DNA from: Deltaproteobacteria bacterium
GTDB lineage: Bacteria; Desulfobacterota; Binatia; DP-6
Direction of reading: 5' to 3'
NCBI GenBank assembly: GCA_005879245.1
Contig: VBLA01000049.1
Coordinates: 1 to 16,197 of the forward strand
Length of the DNA: 16,197 bases
The notes beneath the pieces were generated by a model that worked only from the letters and a program-made list of their open reading frames with translations, was not told the DNA's origin and made no database searches. Position numbers and translations under genes: made by a program. Shown in pieces: positions 4,341-16,197 of this stretch. Numbering within the stretch: position 1 is the first letter of the stretch; the number at the start of each line of letters is the position of its first letter.

Positions 4341-5369
4341 ATGGTCGAGCGCACCCGTCGCGACCCGCCGCGGGTCTCCACGGACCGCCATCCCGCCCTC
4401 CGGCGGCGAGCGAAGCGCGTCCGCCCGGCCCCCGACCTGCCAGCCGGCATCCGCGTCGTCCCCCGCGACCAGGAGGAGGCGATCGTCGACTTCGGGGATC
4501 GCCAGGTGAAGCTCACGAACCTCCGGAAGCCTTTCTGGCCAGCGCTCGGCATCACCAAGGGGGACCTCATCCAATACTACGTCGACGTGGCGACCGTTCT
4601 GCTGCCCCATCTCCGCGATCGGGCCATGGTCATGAAGCGCTACCCGGACGGCGCCGCGGGCCCGTTCTTCTTCATGAAGCGCGCACCTCAGCCCCGCCCG
4701 GACTGGATCGAAATCTGCGCCATCGAGCATGCGTCGGGCAACGTGATCGACTTCCCGATCATCCAGGACCTCCCCGCCCTCCTCTGGGTGATCAACCTGG
4801 GATGCATCGACCTGAACCAGTGGTATGCCCGCTGCGACGACGTCGATCGGCCCGACTACCTCCACTTCGACCTCGATCCGGGCGACGGCGTCGCCTTCGC
4901 GAAGGTGATCGAGTGCGCGCTCATCCTGCACGAGACGCTCGCGGGGCTGGACATGCCGGTCCACGCGAAGACGACCGGCTCGAAGGGAATGCATCTCTAC
5001 GTGCCGATCGTCCGCGGCCCGACGCAGAAGCAGGTCTGGCAAGTGGCCAAGACGGTCGCCCTGGAGGTCGCCCGTCGCCATCCGACCCTCATGACCGCCG
5101 AGTATCGCCTCGCGAAACGGCCGACGGGCCGCGTCCTCATCGACTACAACCAGAACGCCTGGGGCCGCACCCTCGCCTCGGTGTACTCGGTGCGTCCCCA
5201 TCCGCGCGCCTGCGTGTCGACGCCCGTCACCTGGCGCGAGGTCGCACGAGGCCTCGAGGTCGAGGACTTCCGCATCGACAACGTCCCCGCGCGCGTCCGC
5301 CGCCGCGGGGATCTGTGGGCGCCGCTGCTCGCCGCCGAGGGACGCATCGATCTCGCGCGTTTCTCCTGA
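4341..5369 (+). CDS. LigD-type polymerase domain protein (archaeo-eukaryotic primase family), 342 aa
   Basis: It matches the polymerase domain (PolDom) that in bacterial DNA ligase D adds nucleotides and ribonucleotides during non-homologous end joining. The visible order is VKLTNLRKPFWPALGITKGDLIQYY, then YPDGAAGPFFFMKRAP, then the catalytic motif HFDLDPGDG with D177 and D179, KTTGSKGMHLYVP with H218, and VLIDYNQN with the third acidic residue D268. It then ends in the usual RIDNVPAR segment. No ligase or phosphoesterase domain is fused and no ku gene is in the window, so its repair partner, if any, is elsewhere; stand-alone forms of this domain are known. It looks intact. Bases 4853-5041 recur inverted at 6424-6612. 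Confidence 0.9.
   Translation: MVERTRRDPPRVSTDRHPALRRRAKRVRPAPDLPAGIRVVPRDQEEAIVDFGDRQVKLTNLRKPFWPALGITKGDLIQYYVDVATVLLPHLRDRAMVMKRYPDGAAGPFFFMKRAPQPRPDWIEICAIEHASGNVIDFPIIQDLPALLWVINLGCIDLNQWYARCDDVDRPDYLHFDLDPGDGVAFAKVIECALILHETLAGLDMPVHAKTTGSKGMHLYVPIVRGPTQKQVWQVAKTVALEVARRHPTLMTAEYRLAKRPTGRVLIDYNQNAWGRTLASVYSVRPHPRACVSTPVTWREVARGLEVEDFRIDNVPARVRRRGDLWAPLLAAEGRIDLARFS
4853..5041 (+). repeat. Donor copy of a 189-bp inverted repeat (inside the LigD-type gene)
   Basis: This coding segment spans the DxD motif to just past the GSKGMH motif. It is repeated in reverse orientation at 6424-6612 with 187 of 189 bases identical and no indels. Confidence 0.95.
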
Positions 5370-5393: not shown

Positions 5394-6161
5394 TCAAGCA
5401 CCCGAGAAGCTCATCTCGTTCACGAGCGCGTCCTTCAGCGGGAGGAAGGTACTCTCCTTCGCGGACTGCTTGCAGGCCCGCACGGCGAGCGGGCCGTTGA
5501 GGCAGATCGTATCGGCGAGCCGGCGCGCCTCGGGCAGGACCTCGGCGCGCGGCACGACGCGGTTGACGAGACCCATCTCGTAGGCGCGCTCGGCGCTGAT
5601 GCGGTCGGCGAGCAGCAACACCTCCATCGCGTTGCACCACGAGAGCTGGCGGACGCTGTGCACGGTCGAGCCGCCGCCGGGGAAGAGGCCGCGGCGCGGC
5701 TCGGCGAGCTGGAACCAGGCCGTGTCGGCGCACACGCGAAGGTCGGTGTTCCACATCATCTCGAGCCCGCCCGCGGCGCAGATGCCGTTGATCGCCGCGA
5801 CCACGGGCTTGTAGAGCTTGAACTCGGTGCCGTCGGGCAGCGTGGCACCGTCGCGCAGCACGGCGACCAGCGAGTGCGCCATCGTGTACCTGGATCCCTC
5901 CACCGTTTCGCGGGACTCCCCCGCCCCCAGGCGGTCCGCACGTTCGGTGACGATCGGGATGAAGCGCTTCAGGTCGGCACCGACGCAGTACACGTCGCCG
6001 ACTCCGGTGAGAATCGCGACGTAGGCGCCGTCGTCGTCCCGGAAGCGCACCCAGCTATCGGCGAGCTGCCCGAAATGCTCGAGGTCGAGGGAGTTGCGCT
6101 GCTCGGGACAGTCGATCGTGATGGTGACGATGTGGCCGTCCTTCTCGTAGTGGATGGGCAC
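5394..6161 (-). CDS. Enoyl-CoA hydratase/isomerase (crotonase) family protein, 255 aa
   Basis: The crotonase fold binds an acyl-CoA and stabilises an enolate in two oxyanion-hole loops. The sequence shows the N-terminal strand ITIDCPEQRNSLD, the first oxyanion loop CVGADLKRF, and the second in INGICAAGGLEMMWNTDLRV. The usual catalytic region follows (FQLAEPRRGLFPGGGS), so the two classical Glu positions are not both present and hydratase activity is not assured. The C-terminal helices stop early: after AVRACKQSAKESTFLPLKDAL the protein ends at NEMSFSGA, where relatives normally run 25-30 residues on to a SEDAxEGxxAFxEKR tail. Start is GTG. It converges with the LigD-type gene, 24 bases apart. 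The substrate is unknown, but the surroundings suggest acyl-CoA catabolism. Confidence 0.85.
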   Translation of the reverse strand: MPIHYEKDGHIVTITIDCPEQRNSLDLEHFGQLADSWVRFRDDDGAYVAILTGVGDVYCVGADLKRFIPIVTERADRLGAGESRETVEGSRYTMAHSLVAVLRDGATLPDGTEFKLYKPVVAAINGICAAGGLEMMWNTDLRVCADTAWFQLAEPRRGLFPGGGSTVHSVRQLSWCNAMEVLLLADRISAERAYEMGLVNRVVPRAEVLPEARRLADTICLNGPLAVRACKQSAKESTFLPLKDALVNEMSFSGA

Positions 6162-6249: not shown

Positions 6250-7199
6250 ATGGCACGGATCCGCGTCCTCTTCGAGAGCGGCGAGCCCGAGCGCGTGATC
6301 GAGTTCGACCCGCGCAAGGCGCCCTTTCAGCACGACGGGCGGCCGGGATCGATCCTCGACGTGCTCCTCGCCCACGGCGTGCCGCTCGAGCACGCCTGCG
6401 GGGGGAACTGCGCCTGCACCACCTGCCAGACCTGCTTCTGCGTGGGGCCGCGGACGATCGGCACGTAGAGATGCATTCCCTTCGAGCCGGTCGTCTTCGC
6501 GTGGACCGGCATGTCCAGCCCCGCGAGCGTCTCGTGCAGGATGAGCGCGCACTCGATCACCTTCGTGAAGGCGACGCCGTCGCCCGGATCGAGGTCGAAG
6601 TGGAGGTAGTCGTCTTCCGACCCGGCCAGTTCATCTCGTGCCTGCTGCCCGTCGGCGAGGAGCGGCTCATCCGCCCCTACTCGATCGCCTCCAGTCCCGA
6701 GGAGGGCGACTGCCTGGAGCTGGTGGTCGATCGGGTCCCTGGCGGACCGGGGTCGCACTACCTCTTCGGGCTCCAGATCGGCGCCACGCTCCGCTTCACG
6801 GGCCCGTGGGGTACCTTCACCCTCGACCGCGCACCGGCGGGCGAAGCCGTCTTCATCGCCGACGGCACGGGCATCGCGCCCATCCGCCCCATGCTCCGGC
6901 GCGCGCTCGCGAGCGCCCCGACACACCCCCTCCGCCTCCTCCACGCCGGAGACGGCCGCGCTCCGCCGCTCTACCACGAGGAGCTGCTCCAGCTGGCGCG
7001 CACGAACCCCGCCTTCACCCTCGACCACGTCGAGTCGCGCACCCTGCTCCGCGAGGTCTGCCGCCGCTGGATCGAATCCGACACCGACCGCACCCGCCAC
7101 TTCTTCATCTGCGGCGTGGGTCTCATCGTGCCGACGTTGCGGGACAGCTTGCGGCAGGCAGGCTACGCGAGGCGCGCCGTGCAGTACGAGAAGTGGTGA
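6250..7199 (+). pseudogene. Ferredoxin/ferredoxin-reductase fusion gene, interrupted
   Basis: The two ends of one electron-transfer protein are visible. From ATG 6250, residues 1-59 are a 2Fe-2S ferredoxin of the ISC/adrenodoxin type, ending in HACGGNCACTTC (ligands Cys50, Cys56, Cys59). From 6612, in another frame, an FNR-type reductase resumes with FRPGQFI, then RPYSIASSP for FAD, DGTGIAPIRPM for the nicotinamide, FFICGVGLIVP, and the C-terminal YEKW. Between them lies the 189-bp inverted LigD-type fragment. The ferredoxin frame stops at 6468; the fourth Fe-S cysteine and the start of the FAD domain, about 100 residues, are missing. A chimeric frame from ATG 6471 could still express the reductase half. 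The neighbouring P450 makes a redox-partner role plausible for the original protein. Confidence 0.8.
6424..6612 (-). repeat. Inverted 189-bp copy of the LigD-type coding segment
   Basis: The reverse complement equals 4853-5041 except at 6444 (synonymous Pro codon) and 6566 (Ala to Thr, giving AFTKV). The copy therefore comes from a slightly different allele. The borders share TGCCA on the ferredoxin side and GTCG on the reductase side with what must have been native sequence. No terminal inverted repeats, transposase or target duplication are seen. Confidence 0.9.
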
Positions 7200-8309: not shown

Positions 8310-9560
8310 ATGCCAGACGTCCCGGCCGGCCCCGCCACGTCGCCCGTCATCCAGCTCTACCACTGGGTCCGCCGGCCCATCCCGTTCATGGAGGAGTGCG
8401 CGGCGCGCTACGGTGACCGCTTCACCATCCGGCTGCCAATCTTCGGCGAGGCGGGCGACCGTCCACCGCTCGTCTTCTTCAGCGACCCCGAGGCGGTCAA
8501 GGAGATCTTCACCGGCAACGACGACGAGCTCCGGGCGGGCGAGGCCAACGCCCCGCTCCTGCCGCTCCTCGGTGAGCACTCCCTCCTCATGCTCGACGGG
8601 GCCCGCCATCTCCACGAGCGGCGCCTGATGATGCCACCCTTCCACGGCGAGCGGATGCAGGCCTACGGCGAGACGATGTGCGAGGTCACCGACGCGTCGA
8701 TCGAGGCGTGGCCCGCCGGGCGGCCGTTCCCCATCCACCCGCACATGCAGCGCATCACGCTCGACGTGATCCTGCGCACGGTGTTCGGCCTCGAGGAAGG
8801 TGCGCAGATGGTCCGGCTGCGCGATCTCCTGACCGAGCTCCTCGCCTTCTCGACCAACCCGCTCGCCCTCCTGCCCTGGTTCCGCGTGGAGCTCGGGGGA
8901 TTCACGCCGTGGGGCCGGCTCATGCGGGCCTCGCGGGCCGTCGACGAGATGCTCTTCGCCGAGATCCGGCGGCGCCGCGAGGTCGGCACGACGGGGCGCA
9001 CCGACATCCTCTCGATGCTGATCGAGGCGCGTGACGAGGACGACCGCCCGATGAGCGACGTCGAGCTGCGCGACGAGATGTTCACCCTCCTCGTCGCCGG
9101 GCACGAGACGACCGCCACGTCTCTCTGCTGGGTGTTTCACCGCATCCTCCGCCGGCCGGACGTGCTGGAGAAGCTCCGCGCCGAGCTCGCCCGCGTCGTC
9201 GGCACGGGGCCCGTCCGTCCCGAGCACGTCCCCGCACTCGAGTATCTCGACGCCACCATCAAGGAGACGCTCCGGCTGAACCCGATCATCCCGATCGTGC
9301 CCGATCCCGAGCGCTTCGACCCCGACCGCTTCGTCGGCCAGCGCGTGAGTCCCTACGCGTTCTTCCCCTTCGGCGGCGGCATCCGGCGCTGCCTCGGCAT
9401 GGCCTTCGCGCTCTACGAGATGCGTGTCGTGACGGCCGAGGTGCTGCAGCGGGTCGTCCTCCGCGCCGCGCCGGGGTACCAGGTGCGCGTCGTGCGACGG
9501 GGCATCACGTTCGCGCCCTCCGACGGCCTGCCCGTGCTGGCCGAGAAGCGCGCCGCCTGA
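8310..9560 (+). CDS. Cytochrome P450 with an internal deletion, 416 aa
   Basis: It is a heme-thiolate monooxygenase needing an electron donor. The I-helix oxygen-binding motif is AGHETT (263-268), the K-helix ETLR is at 319-322, and the heme loop FFPFGGGIRRCLG has the ligand Cys361. Between the K-helix and the PERF motif the sequence jumps from NPIIPIV straight to PDPERFDPDRF. Only 39 residues separate the ExxR Arg from the heme Cys, against 67 in P450cam and 77 in P450 BM3. About 30-38 residues (strands around the substrate pocket and the K'-helix) are gone, in frame. The join at 9281-9306 holds three copies of CCCGATC. With this gap the enzyme is unlikely to fold normally. The remaining sequence is well conserved. 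It follows the LLM gene and precedes a GST. Confidence 0.85.
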   Translation: MPDVPAGPATSPVIQLYHWVRRPIPFMEECAARYGDRFTIRLPIFGEAGDRPPLVFFSDPEAVKEIFTGNDDELRAGEANAPLLPLLGEHSLLMLDGARHLHERRLMMPPFHGERMQAYGETMCEVTDASIEAWPAGRPFPIHPHMQRITLDVILRTVFGLEEGAQMVRLRDLLTELLAFSTNPLALLPWFRVELGGFTPWGRLMRASRAVDEMLFAEIRRRREVGTTGRTDILSMLIEARDEDDRPMSDVELRDEMFTLLVAGHETTATSLCWVFHRILRRPDVLEKLRAELARVVGTGPVRPEHVPALEYLDATIKETLRLNPIIPIVPDPERFDPDRFVGQRVSPYAFFPFGGGIRRCLGMAFALYEMRVVTAEVLQRVVLRAAPGYQVRVVRRGITFAPSDGLPVLAEKRAA

Positions 9561-11626: not shown

Positions 11627-12388
11627 ATGCTCCTCCCCGACAAGAAGATCATCGTGACCGGTGGTGCGAGCGGCATTGGCGCCGCGACCGTGCGCGCCTA
11701 TGCGCGCGAGGGGGCACGGGTGGCCGCGCTCGACGTGCAGGACGCGTCGGGCCGGCGCGTTGCCGCCGAGGCCGGAGACGCGGTCACCTACCACCACTGC
11801 GACGTGTCGAGCCGGGAGGCAGTACACGAGGTCTTCGCGCGCGTCGTCGCAGGGCTCGGGGGCCTCGACGTGCTCGCCCACGTGGCGGGGCTCGAGCGGG
11901 GGACACCCGCCGAGGACATTCCGGACGAGGAGTGGGATCTCGTCTTCGACGTGAACGTCAAGGGTACGCTCTACACGAACCAGGTGGCCTTCCGGCACAT
12001 GCAGGCGCGCGGCGGCCACATCATCAACTTCGGCTCGGGGGCGGGCATCCGCGGCCAGCGCGGCTCGGCGCACTACTCTGCCGCCAAGGCGGCGGTGATG
12101 GGGTGGACGCGGACCGTCGCGCAGGAGTGGGCCCGCTACAACATCACGGTCAACTCGGTCGTCCCCGCGATCTGGACGCCGATGTACGACGCTCACCGCG
12201 CGCGCATGTCGCCCGGAGAGCTGAGCATCCACGACCTCGCGATGCAGCACGTGATCCCGCTCGGCGGGCGGCTCGGGGATCCGGACCGCGACATCGCGCC
12301 CGTCATGGTCTTCCTCGCTGGCGACGGCGCTCGCTTCATCACGGGGCAGGCGATCGCGGTCGACGGCGGCATGATCATGCTCGGGTAG
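11627..12388 (+). CDS. Short-chain dehydrogenase/reductase (classical SDR), 253 aa
   Basis: It is an NAD(P)-dependent oxidoreductase with a Rossmann fold. The cofactor motif is TGGASGIG near the N-terminus, the acidic ALD after the second strand favours NAD(H), and the active-site residues are S137 (INFGSG) and Y150/K154 (YSAAK). The C-terminal DGGMIML is typical. The usual NNAG motif appears as HVAG, which changes the residue that normally stabilises the central sheet. The length is complete. Substrate is unknown; a hydroxyacyl or sterol-type alcohol would suit the neighbourhood, but that is inference. It has its own palindromic promoter and is 46 bases after gpmA, so it is probably separately controlled. 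Confidence 0.9.
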   Translation: MLLPDKKIIVTGGASGIGAATVRAYAREGARVAALDVQDASGRRVAAEAGDAVTYHHCDVSSREAVHEVFARVVAGLGGLDVLAHVAGLERGTPAEDIPDEEWDLVFDVNVKGTLYTNQVAFRHMQARGGHIINFGSGAGIRGQRGSAHYSAAKAAVMGWTRTVAQEWARYNITVNSVVPAIWTPMYDAHRARMSPGELSIHDLAMQHVIPLGGRLGDPDRDIAPVMVFLAGDGARFITGQAIAVDGGMIMLG

Positions 12389-12418
12389 TGGGACTCCAGG
12401 TTGATACCGCTCATGCGC
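12382..12418 (-). repeat. Copy 1 of a 37-bp inverted repeat pair
   Basis: Its reverse complement matches 15128-15164 at 34 of 37 bases, with a 27-base core (12392-12418) at 26 of 27. It overlaps the SDR stop codon. Read on the minus strand it holds ATG followed by codons for SGINLES. The rest of the SDR-MltB gap (to 12510) holds only a small 5-bp GGACC/GGTCC stem. Confidence 0.85.
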
Positions 12419-12510
12419 AAGCGACAATCGTGAGGCCGTCCGCGTGGGTTCCCGTGCCCGCCTCGCCAAGCAAATGCCTGGACCCGTGGTCCGGCGGAGC
12501 TCGCGCACAC

Positions 12511-13527
12511 TTACCGATGCTCAGCCGCCGGTGGCGTGGGAGCGCGGTGCCTCGTGTGATGCAGCGCTCGATGCGCCGGCCGACGCGCAGCCACGACGTG
12601 GCGCTTGACCGACCGGTGCACCAGCGCAGTCGGTGCGCTCTCCGGCGTGTCGATGCGGCGCGCGATCGTCAGGACCGCGTCGATGTATGCGTCGGAGCGG
12701 TTGTACTGCCAGATGACGCGTCGGCGCTGCGCGACCGTCAGGCCGGGATGCCAGCCATGGCTGGCGAGGAAGTGCGCGCACGACGCGGCGGCGTCGGGCA
12801 TGTCGTAGAGGCTCACCCGGCCGTCGCCATCCGCATCGACGCCGAAGCGGAGGAAGCTCGTCGGCAGGAACTGTGGGTAGCCGAAAGCGCCCGACTCGGA
12901 GCCGCGGAGGTCGAGCGGATCGACGTGCAGGCGGGCCGCGACCGTGAAAAGCGCCCGCGCCTCGGGATAGAAGGTGTCCTCGAGGTAGCGCGCGCGGGCG
13001 CGGACCTGGAGCGCGACCGCGGGATCGTCGCCCGCCAAGCGGTCGACATTCGCATCCACGTTCGCCGGCTCGTTCGCCATCGCGAGGCGCGCGAGCCCGG
13101 GCAAGAGAAGGCTCCGACCCGTGTAGTGTCCGCACCCGCTCTCGACGTGGAGGATCGCGGCGACCACGCTCGCCGGGACCCCGTACCGGCGCTCAGCGTC
13201 GGCGAGGGCATCGGTCCAGCGGTGGCGGCACCGACGGGCCTGGGCGACGCTCGCCGGGCGGAGCAGCGCACGATAGAGCGACGCAGGCTCCCGCGGTGCG
13301 AGCGAGAAATACAGCCCGTCGAAGCGGGGTACGCGCGGATCGGCGAACGAGACCACCACCTCCGCCGCAGGCACGCCATCGGCCTCGAGCTTCGCGACCA
13401 GATAGCCCCAGCCCCGCAGGTCGTCGTCCGCGGCTGCGGGCGAGGCGCATACGACCGTGCACAGCACCGTCAGGACGACGGCGGCGGTCGACGAGACACC
13501 TCGGGCGTCGCAGGGTCGCGTGGGCAC
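12511..13527 (-). CDS. MltB-like lytic murein transglycosylase (GH103 type), 338 aa
   Basis: It cleaves the glycan strands of peptidoglycan, forming 1,6-anhydro ends, in the periplasm. From GTG 13527 it has a signal peptide: a basic N-terminus, then AAVVLTVLCTVVCASPAAA, with an AxA cleavage site rather than a proper lipobox. The mature part begins DDLRGWGYLVAKLEADGVP, and the catalytic helix AAILHVESGCGHYTG carries Glu129. GYPQFLPTSFLRFGVDADGDG is the MltB/Slt35 hallmark with an EF-hand-like loop. The C-terminal domain has VIWQYNRSDAYIDAV, then a His/Arg-rich tail. It looks intact. The frame stays open upstream beyond 13527, but that extension is Arg-rich and lacks family similarity. It is convergent with the SDR gene and divergent from the radical SAM gene. 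Confidence 0.85.
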   Translation of the reverse strand: MPTRPCDARGVSSTAAVVLTVLCTVVCASPAAADDDLRGWGYLVAKLEADGVPAAEVVVSFADPRVPRFDGLYFSLAPREPASLYRALLRPASVAQARRCRHRWTDALADAERRYGVPASVVAAILHVESGCGHYTGRSLLLPGLARLAMANEPANVDANVDRLAGDDPAVALQVRARARYLEDTFYPEARALFTVAARLHVDPLDLRGSESGAFGYPQFLPTSFLRFGVDADGDGRVSLYDMPDAAASCAHFLASHGWHPGLTVAQRRRVIWQYNRSDAYIDAVLTIARRIDTPESAPTALVHRSVKRHVVAARRPAHRALHHTRHRAPTPPAAEHR

Positions 13528-13738
13528 GGAATGTCTTTCGCCACGAACGCGCGAAGTCTTCAAGGCAGCAACACCGGCCGTCTCGTCGACACCGAGCGCG
13601 ACTTCGAGCCCCTCTCCGGCATGGCCGCCAGAGCGCCATCCCGGTGCGCGTCCGCGCGCTCGCGCCGGCCGAGCGCGCGGCCTTCGACTGAACTCCCTTG
13701 GGATTGCGTTTCGGTGCGAGGCAGCGCAAGTAACGCCC

Positions 13739-14831
13739 ATGGGGTGGCTCGCGAGGCGGGAGACGACCGCGATCCGTCTCGAGGCGTCGACCATCTGCCA
13801 GCTCAAGTGCCCCATCTGTCCGACGACCGAGGGCCTCATCAAGCAACAGCTCGGCTCGGGCTTCCTCAAGTTCGACGCCTTTCGCCGAATCGTCGACGAG
13901 AATCCGTGGGTGCACGCGATCGAGCTGTCGAACTGGGGTGAGATCTTCACTGAACCCGGAGATCGAGCACATCCTCGCCTATGCGTACCGGCGGAGCGTC
14001 GCCTTGTCGGCGTGGAACGGCGCCAACCTGAACCACGTGAAGGAGCCGGTCCTGGAGGCCCTCGCCCGGTACAAGTTCCGCGGCATCACGTGCTCGATCG
14101 ACGGTATCACCAACGAGACGTACGCCGCCTACCGTCGCACGGGGAACGTCGAGCGCGTGTTCGAGAACATCCGGAAGATCAACGCCAACAAGCGGCGCTG
14201 GAAGACGCGCTACCCGAAGCTCCGCTGGCACATGATCGCCTTCGGGCACAACGCGCACGAGGTCGCCCCGGCGCGGGCGCTCGCCGCCGAGCTCGGCATG
14301 GAGTTCTTTCTGAAGGCCAGCTGGGACCCGAACTACTCGCCCGTCGAGGCGCAGGGGCCCACCGCGCCGACGGCCGTTCCGGACCCCGCCCGCGCGGCCG
14401 CGCCGGCTTCGTCACCGGGCGCGCAGCCGGCGCAGGGCGAGGACCTGACCCGCACGTACTGCCTGCAGCTCTGGGAGCAGCCGCAGATCAACTTCGACGG
14501 CAAGCTGCTCGGGTGCTGCGTGAACTCGTGGGGCGCGTTCGGCCACAACGTCCTCGAGGTCGGGCTTGAGCGCGCGCTCGGCGGCGAGCGCCTCGCCTAC
14601 GCCAAGCGCATGCTCCAGGGGACGGCGCCGGCGCGCGACGACGTCCCGTGCACGGCCTGCGCGACGTACGTCGGACTTGCCGGGGCCAGGCAGTGGATCG
14701 AGGCACCCCCGCCGCCGCAAGGTGTCGCCGGCTTCCTCAAGCGGCACGGCCTGGGTCGGACGGTCGTGTGGATCAACAACCGATACGGAAGCCAGCTCCT
14801 ACCCGTCCTCGAACGGCTCCGGCTGGCGTGA
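13739..14831 (+). pseudogene. Radical SAM/SPASM-type protein, split by one inserted base
   Basis: The 5' part (ATG 13739) has RLEASTICQLKCPICPTTEG with the CxxxCxxC cluster ligands Cys20, Cys24 and Cys27, which generate the 5'-deoxyadenosyl radical, then AIELSNWGEIF. At 13949 one extra A breaks the frame: GAGATCTTC-A-CTGAACCCG. Without it the protein continues EIFLNPEIEHILAYAYRR, through ITCSIDGITNETYAAYRRTG, to a C-terminal auxiliary cluster region (TYCLQLW, LLGCCVNSW, VPCTACATY) ending at 14831. About 363 residues would result. The SPASM-type end suggests modification of a peptide or protein, or a small cyclic substrate, but no precursor peptide is recognisable nearby. A Pro/Ala-rich stretch at 14355-14430 is a linker. 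Whether the indel is real or a sequencing error is open. Confidence 0.8.
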
Positions 14832-14842
14832 GCGTCGCACCT

Positions 14843-15092
14843 CCCCCCCCCAGGAATCCGCGCGCCACGACCTTCAAGCCGAGGATCGGTTTCACGTCCT
14901 CGAAGATCGACAGCACCTGCGCGTCGCGTAGCGCGAGATCGGGAACTCCTCCGCGTAGCCCCAGCCGCCGTGCAGGAGCTGTCCCTCCTGCGTCACCGAC
15001 ACCGCGTCATCGGACGCGAAGAGCTTCGCCATCGACGGCTCGAGCAGCGCGCGGGGTCGCTGTGCGGCGCGGTGGGGGTGCGCGAGGACCAT
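14843..15092 (-). pseudogene. Acyl-CoA dehydrogenase C-terminal remnant
   Basis: On the minus strand the motif SMAKLFASDDAVSVTQEGQL, then LHGGWGYAEEFPISRY, is the family's C-terminal domain, including the arginine and glycine positions that contact FAD. After RY the frame breaks (about 14910, a loss of one or four bases). The other frame continues RDAQVLSIFEDVKPILG, then LKVVARGFLG, the normal end of the protein. It then runs into a nine-base G tract (14843-14851). The N-terminal 300 or so residues are absent; upstream is only a short unrecognised stretch and the 37-bp repeat. It cannot be an active dehydrogenase. Its 3' end lies close to the end of the radical SAM gene. Confidence 0.75.
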
Positions 15093-15127
15093 GAGCCGGC
15101 ACCTCCGGCCCCTGCCCTCCCTCGCCC

Positions 15128-15164
15128 GCGCATGAGCGGTATCAACTTGGAGTCACACTAGCCG
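15128..15164 (+). repeat. Copy 2 of the 37-bp inverted repeat pair
   Basis: It is inverted relative to 12382-12418. It lies just outside the truncated end of the acyl-CoA dehydrogenase remnant. Two of the three differences would be silent if the stretch were read as codons starting at ATG 15132. Confidence 0.85.
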
Positions 15165-15240: not shown

Positions 15241-16197
15241 ATGTCGCTCCCCCGTCCGCCGCTTCCCGCTCTCGAGCCCGAGTCCGAGCGGTTCTGGCGC
15301 GCCTGTCGTGAGGGGCGACTCGAGATCAGCCGCTGCCGTGCGTGCGGATGGTACGTGCACCCGCCGCGGCCCGTCTGCCCGCGGTGCCACCTCGCCGAGC
15401 AGGCGGGTCTTCGCCTGACGACGAACCTGGTCGGATGTGCTCCCGACGACGTACGGATCGGTATGCCGGTCCGCGTCCGGTTCGAGCCGGTGAGCGACGA
15501 GATCGCGCTGCCCCTCTTCGAGCCCGACCCCACCGCCGCCACGTCCCCGCCACCTCCCATACCCCGGCCGGTCGCGCCGGCCATCCGGCCGAGCGATGCC
15601 GAGCGGCTCGAGCGGCGCGCCATCATCTCGGGCGTCGGCCAGTCACAGATCGGCCGGCGCCTCCTCCGCACCGACCTCGACCTCACCTGCGAGGCCGCGC
15701 TCCGCGCGATTGCCGACGCGGGCCTCACACCGGCGGACATCGACGGTCTCGCCTGCTACCCAGGTCCCATGGGGGCGGGCGCGCCCGGCTTCGCGGGACC
15801 GGGCACGCCGGAGGTGCAGGACGCCCTCGGGCTCCAGCTCGGCTGGCACGGCTCCGGGGGTGAGGGACCGGCGCAAGTGGCGCCGGTGATGCTCAGCGCG
15901 CTCGCCGTCGCCGCCGGTCTCTGTCGCCACGTGCTCGTCTACCGGACGGTCACGGAGGCGACGGCGCAGGGCGCCGGCGGCCGGGTCGGCATCGGCGCGG
16001 GGTCGCGCGCAGTTTCGGGCTTCGCGCAGTGGGTGATCCCCTTCGGTGCGATGTCGGCGGCGAACTGGCTGGCGCTCCACGCCGTCCGCCACATGCACGA
16101 GTTCGGGACGAAGCGGGAGCATATGGGAGAGATCGCGCTCGCGGGCCGTGCGCATGCCGCCCTCAATCCCGCGGCGATCTATCGCGAGCCCCTGACG
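15241..16197 (+). CDS. DUF35 (OB-fold/zinc-ribbon) fused to a thiolase-like domain, partial
   Basis: It runs off the window with 319 codons open. The N-terminal DUF35 part has a rubredoxin-like zinc ribbon, CRAC (Cys32, Cys35) and CPRC (Cys46, Cys49), then an OB-fold ending VGCAPDDVRIGMPVRVRFEPV. After a Pro-rich linker (about 97-117), the thiolase-like domain starts RRAIISGVGQSQIGRRL, with EAALRAIADAGLTPADIDGL and, later, GSGGEGPAQVAP and LVYRTVTEATAQGAGG. In steroid side-chain catabolism a DUF35 protein pairs with the Ltp2-type thiolase-fold retro-aldolase; a fusion of both parts would fit such acyl-CoA lyase work, but the substrate is not shown. The region where a thiolase nucleophilic Cys is expected reads WHGSGGEG, without Cys. 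CPRCH jumps to LAEQAGLRLTTN, so about 45 residues of the OB-fold are missing. Confidence 0.8.
   Translation, partial: MSLPRPPLPALEPESERFWRACREGRLEISRCRACGWYVHPPRPVCPRCHLAEQAGLRLTTNLVGCAPDDVRIGMPVRVRFEPVSDEIALPLFEPDPTAATSPPPPIPRPVAPAIRPSDAERLERRAIISGVGQSQIGRRLLRTDLDLTCEAALRAIADAGLTPADIDGLACYPGPMGAGAPGFAGPGTPEVQDALGLQLGWHGSGGEGPAQVAPVMLSALAVAAGLCRHVLVYRTVTEATAQGAGGRVGIGAGSRAVSGFAQWVIPFGAMSAANWLALHAVRHMHEFGTKREHMGEIALAGRAHAALNPAAIYREPLT

Follow-up and report, generated by a model that had tools for sequence, protein, structure and literature searches.

An inverted LigD-type gene fragment replacing part of a ferredoxin/ferredoxin reductase gene pair in a draft bacterial genome is most likely a library or scaffolding chimera

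End-joining repair can give a deletion together with filler that was copied from nearby with microhomology, and scaffolding can misplace a small variant contig, in the wrong orientation, inside a gap, where a short-insert library would link less than 1.4 kb. A k-mer assembler cannot join sequences on 3-5 nt unless the reads themselves contain the joins. MDA chimeras are, according to Lasken and Stockwell (2007; PMC1855051), inverted with an intervening deletion in 85% of cases, mostly less than 10 kb apart and started at short complementary sequences. Amplification chimeras can also be rare, since for the inverted ones PMC10945365 reports less than 0.07% of unmapped reads as chimeric. Short-range template-switch mutations, small in scale, are described from ape genomes in PMC7954356. 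Literature searches on bacterial template switching, template-switch mutation clusters, end joining, chimeras in metagenome bins and scaffolding turned up, judged by title, no bacterial case of the size described below, which is not proof of absence.

Here, we analyse a 16,197-nt stretch of DNA (the window), which is the whole of contig C212 in a draft assembly (G000) of 3.19 Mb in 590 contigs, 81% complete and 1.5% contaminated. The window holds an inverted pair with arms of 194 nt at 4853-5046 and 6419-6612 that are 98% identical. The first-pass annotation had described the core of this pair, 6424-6612, as the reverse complement of 4853-5041 with 187 of 189 positions identical, and both coordinates and counts hold (mismatches 2/189; Table 1). 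The two differences are, as likewise claimed, one synonymous change (at 5021) and one change from Ala to Thr (at 4899, GCG in the source and ACG in the copy), while the match beyond the core reaches 5046 with one further mismatch at 5042. The longest exact inverted match measures 121 nt vs 13-17 nt in 20 shuffled versions of the window, permuted in blocks of three bases, and is far above chance.

Table 1. Features of the window, with coordinates, strand and the basis of each assignment.
Feature	Coordinates	Strand	Basis
LigD-type primase-polymerase gene, 342 aa, intact, source gene	4341..5369	+	PF21686 E 8e-84, residues 72-326; length as in relative P0242
Source segment of the inverted copy	4853..5041	+	Pairwise match
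Enoyl-CoA hydratase gene, intact, between source and copy	5394..6161	-	PF00378; 80-87% identity to five relatives
Ferredoxin remnant: 59 native codons to third ligand Cys, 13 copy-derived codons, stop	6250..6468	+	Comparison with relatives
Join 1: overlap TGCCA (5 nt); CCAC(C/T)TGCCA with one mismatch	6419..6428		Cys-His in relatives
Inverted LigD copy, 187/189 identical	6424..6612	-	Codon model calls minus-strand coding 6403-6614
Join 2: overlap at most TCG	6608..6612		Inferred from P0121 protein
FNR remnant without first 31 codons (by P0121); rest 98% identical to P0121	6613..7199	+	Alignment
Cytochrome P450 without 35 codons after 9299, in frame	8310..9560	+	Alignment of relatives
Radical-SAM gene with 1-nt frameshift near 13949	13758..14831	+	Comparison with G003
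ChsH2-type OB domain + thiolase gene without 39 codons near 15390, in frame	15244..16197	+	Comparison with G003

When a 301-nt query from the LigD-type gene was searched against the whole assembly, only the source and the copy matched, and a paralogous origin of the copy was therefore rejected. The source is retained in place 1.4 kb from what is an inverted copy of nearby sequence, as is characteristic of a template switch. An inverted orientation is all that speaks for a mobile element or a programmed inversion, which is disfavoured and in our view scarcely credible: with the source still in place the piece is a copy and not an inversion, nothing else in the assembly matches it apart from that source, and a Pfam scan of 16 window ORFs revealed no element gene. 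We therefore rejected both a mobile element and an invertible switch. An Rfam scan of the window returned 0 matches. The proposed origin from a diverged allele would account for both differences, but later drift would do so too; at the 4899 site, 120 aligned LigD relatives have Thr in 1 case and Ala in 40. Among the LigD proteins, P0241 (533 aa) carries two primase-polymerase stretches in tandem and is possibly another chimera.

The locus hit by the copy consists of two adjacent genes, an Isc-type [2Fe-2S] ferredoxin followed by a ferredoxin reductase (FNR). They had been read as a single ferredoxin-FNR fusion gene, but in the relatives G001-G005 they are separate neighbours in different frames. 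The enoyl-CoA hydratase gene adjoins the pair in all five of these genomes, and LigD adjoins in G002, G003 and G005. From the third ligand Cys to the first aligned FNR codon, the distance is 289 nt in G002, G003 and G005 and 292-298 nt in G001 and G004, vs 200 nt in the window. About 289 nt spanning the ferredoxin end and the FNR start are swapped for about 200 nt, and because of this spacing the ferredoxin end with the fourth ligand and the first 31 FNR codons are gone, the lost DNA being worth ~95 codons. The proposal that the ferredoxin stops after three of its four Fe-S ligands is thereby upheld as to the loss of the fourth, with the stop lying inside the copy; of the four Cys of an intact Isc-type ferredoxin (C-x5-C-x2-C ... 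C, which we take to be the ligands), three are present and the region of the fourth is replaced. Both remnants are without stop or frameshift outside the copy, and their third-position GC is 0.93-0.95. No stop interrupts the FNR frame within the copy; a new gene in this chance antisense frame was dismissed as a candidate, since GC-rich antisense frames often stay open.

The native bases at join 1 were deduced from the Cys-His of the relatives, in which His follows the third Cys (TGC CAY) in 17 of 19 loci, the other two having given no ferredoxin, and those at join 2 from the P0121 protein, which has Leu-Val-Phe where the copy end reads GTAGTCG. Judged by these proteins, the shared sequence TGCCA that had been proposed at the first join would stand, while the GTCG proposed at the second would shrink to TCG at most. 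The anatomy fits template switching, in the cell or in the tube. If it happened in the cell, a strand growing during replication or break repair would have left the ferredoxin at TGCCA, copied ~189 nt of the opposite strand in LigD and rejoined FNR with ~289 nt lost; the mechanism could be fork template switching, microhomology-mediated break-induced replication or Ku/LigD end joining. We consider such a real templated insertion with deletion possible, but less likely than a chimera. The clean two-join anatomy with its 5-nt overlap at join 1, the donor just 1.4 kb away and the long contig flanks on both sides speak for it, as does the repair equipment of the assembly, with Ku present, the LigD PrimPol here, and a LigD phosphoesterase ORF and an ATP-ligase ORF elsewhere. 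Also in its favour are three more near-identical local duplications among the sampled contigs (one direct of 58 bp, one inverted of 66 bp and one tandem of 614 bp).

Including the window, 94 sequences with 656,626 bases contained 4 within-contig pairs with a length of 50 bp or more and an identity of 95% or more, and relatives contained 0 such pairs in 8 stretches of 112,099 bases, numbers too small for a comparison; local duplications were consequently dropped as a marker of bad assembly. The candidate short templated insertions are the 58 bp direct duplication in C411, the 66 bp inverted duplication in C305 (near the contig end and with both arms outside called coding) and the 189 bp inverted copy described here. 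It is conceivable, though improbable, that an uncultured, end-joining-equipped bacterium makes short templated insertions at new sites frequently, 58-200 nt long and from 0.6-1.8 kb away, several of them visible per draft. The 614-bp near-perfect tandem duplication lies in C306 (L146 3357-4567) and has about 10-nt homology at its edges.

A real mutation would have destroyed the assembly's only match to the gene pair, as no other match to ferredoxin or FNR was found there (E 0.001), whereas each gene turned up in five of six same-family genomes, all but G006, which is 82% complete. Near-identical unbroken versions exist elsewhere: P0121 (226 aa, cluster size 31) has a normal N terminus and matches the surviving FNR at 98% identity, P0122 matches the same part at 94%, and P0001, a fragment ending just before the fourth Cys, begins with the identical 59 ferredoxin residues, after which it goes on as ferredoxin. 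The source label of P0001, 'src', presumably denotes a read-level protein catalogue, itself possibly chimeric. In the ferredoxin search, the copy-derived tail shares no 5-residue word with the 120 matches listed of 1,599. In the FNR search, three of the 120 matches listed of 1,243 have a single such word in common with the copy-derived N part, which we attribute to chance because all three have ordinary FNR N termini. Additionally, some listed hits at 57-64% identity cover 90-94% of the FNR query and so reach the copy-derived part, and the 14 of them that were inspected all have ordinary N termini. The junction is absent from these 240 listed proteins, which is weak evidence because the window's own protein is missing from those lists too. 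The unbroken proteins and the missing junction argue for a chimera and against a real mutation, as do the 2 sites at which copy and source already disagree, given that the remnants appear undecayed.

Three further lesions lie in the same 16-kb contig. The 35 codons absent from the P450 gene are present in 4 of 4 usable aligned relatives (11 loci were compared, of which 4 were usable, 4 were dropped for short wrong-frame readings and 3 gave unusable aligned rows), and its closest matches in relatives and two paralogs of its own align in two blocks; the hole lies between the ExxR helix and the PERF region. For the ChsH2-thiolase gene, the 39 codons are present in G003, while the matches of G001, G004, G005 and G006 likewise fall into two blocks and that of G002 covers the second part only. 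At the radical-SAM frameshift site G003 reads through; no other close relative was found. A 43-nt inverted repeat (88%; 12382-12424 and 15122-15164) flanks the block of lytic transglycosylase and radical-SAM genes, and the SDR and ChsH2-thiolase genes, which flank the 12382-15164 block in the window, are adjacent in G003. On another contig (C28), an NtrC-like regulator (L058 6410-7687) is missing 41 codons that are present in G001-G005 (5/5 searched); the missing segment includes the Walker A region, and by comparison with G005 its join would have almost no base overlap. This hole was the one followed up from a Pfam sample of other contigs comprising the first 30 of 65 eligible genes, in which 25 of 30 had a Pfam family at E 1e-10 or better and profile coverage was partial in L045, L060, L075, L083 and L087.

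With the P450 deletion only 2 kb downstream and two further damaged genes (ChsH2-thiolase and radical-SAM) on this contig, the copy could be one of several lesions of genuine decay after selection was lost on a P450 redox set (ferredoxin, FNR and P450). We hold this to be very unlikely: the remnants are otherwise free of stops and shifts at the high third-position GC given above, seven neighbours (the 3906 ORF, LigD, enoyl-CoA hydratase, luciferase-like, GST, RRM and SDR) align approximately end to end with G003, and no result here ties the ferredoxin to this P450.

The features of the draft bear on both sides. Of 126 contigs sampled, 93 hold letters (640,429 bases), with 19 internal N-runs of 5-283 nt that suggest scaffolding, although part of them may be the operators' masking with N. 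Frame switches, at 25 in 584,432 coding bases vs 3 in 100,718 in relatives, are not clearly raised, and with 17 of the 25 on the minus strand the count may be biased. A search for holes used 174 proteins of relatives, of which 51 matched (50% identity, half coverage), 46 of them inside the window; none of the 5 matched outside it had a hole, two of these being covered only to 0.70 and 0.85. A dispersed repeat of ~145 bp, 79-93% alike and in both orientations, was observed at L040 5281-5430 and in nine other sampled contigs.

Most likely, and with moderate confidence on our part, the inverted piece arose as a chimera, in the library or during scaffolding of a strain-mixed draft, and is not a stable feature of one chromosome. 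We infer that the draft represents a metagenome bin of mixed strains, that intact molecules were not covered by reads at the ferredoxin/FNR locus, and that one of two routes made the join. Reads would have been thin or missing over the native ferredoxin end and FNR start. A short piece of LigD from a slightly divergent strain would then have closed this gap in reversed orientation, arriving either as an amplified molecule that was chimeric or as a small variant contig that the scaffolder put in the wrong place. We favour the chimera because the only ferredoxin/FNR pair is hit, unbroken near-identical forms exist, the donor is diverged, the remnants are undecayed and other lesions occur, namely the three in this contig and the NtrC-like hole on another. 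The fragmented, incomplete draft with its internal N-runs adds to this, as do the features of MDA chimeras given in PMC1855051. However, a k-mer assembler needs reads containing the joins, two joins 189 nt apart require a rare double event, and the contig extends 6.4 kb and 9.6 kb past the copy. The unremarkable frame-switch rate, the 0/5 proteins with a hole outside the window and the possible masking likewise weigh against a chimera, and all three codon holes keep the frame, which an artefact would not have to do, although picking open frames favours such finds. Between the template switching and the chimeric join of strain variants that the first-pass annotation had offered side by side, the latter is thus the better supported, though unproven.

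If the piece is an artefact, structural oddities of draft bins can mimic textbook template-switch mutations, and gene-loss calls from draft metagenome bins need read checks. If it is real, it would represent a clean bacterial inverted templated insertion in the kilobase range that removed a conserved electron-transfer pair.

Compared with known systems, the piece resembles scaffolding misplacement in being short, slightly diverged and placed the wrong way in a gap, in a draft with other gene holes, and differs from it in that its source lies 1.4 kb away. With end-joining templated insertion it shares the deletion plus nearby-copied filler and the microhomology, but the join here has no link to Ku/LigD, and that the donor is LigD is probably a coincidence. 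As in the template-switch mutations of PMC7954356, a nearby-templated copy explains a complex local change; those cases are from apes and small in scale, whereas this one is bacterial, 1.4 kb away and 189 nt long. The MDA chimeras, as portrayed in PMC1855051, are like it in being inverted, near their source, with sequence deleted between and short complementary bases at the join; they join two segments, however, while here two joins bound a 189-nt piece, and the likeness presupposes an amplified sample.
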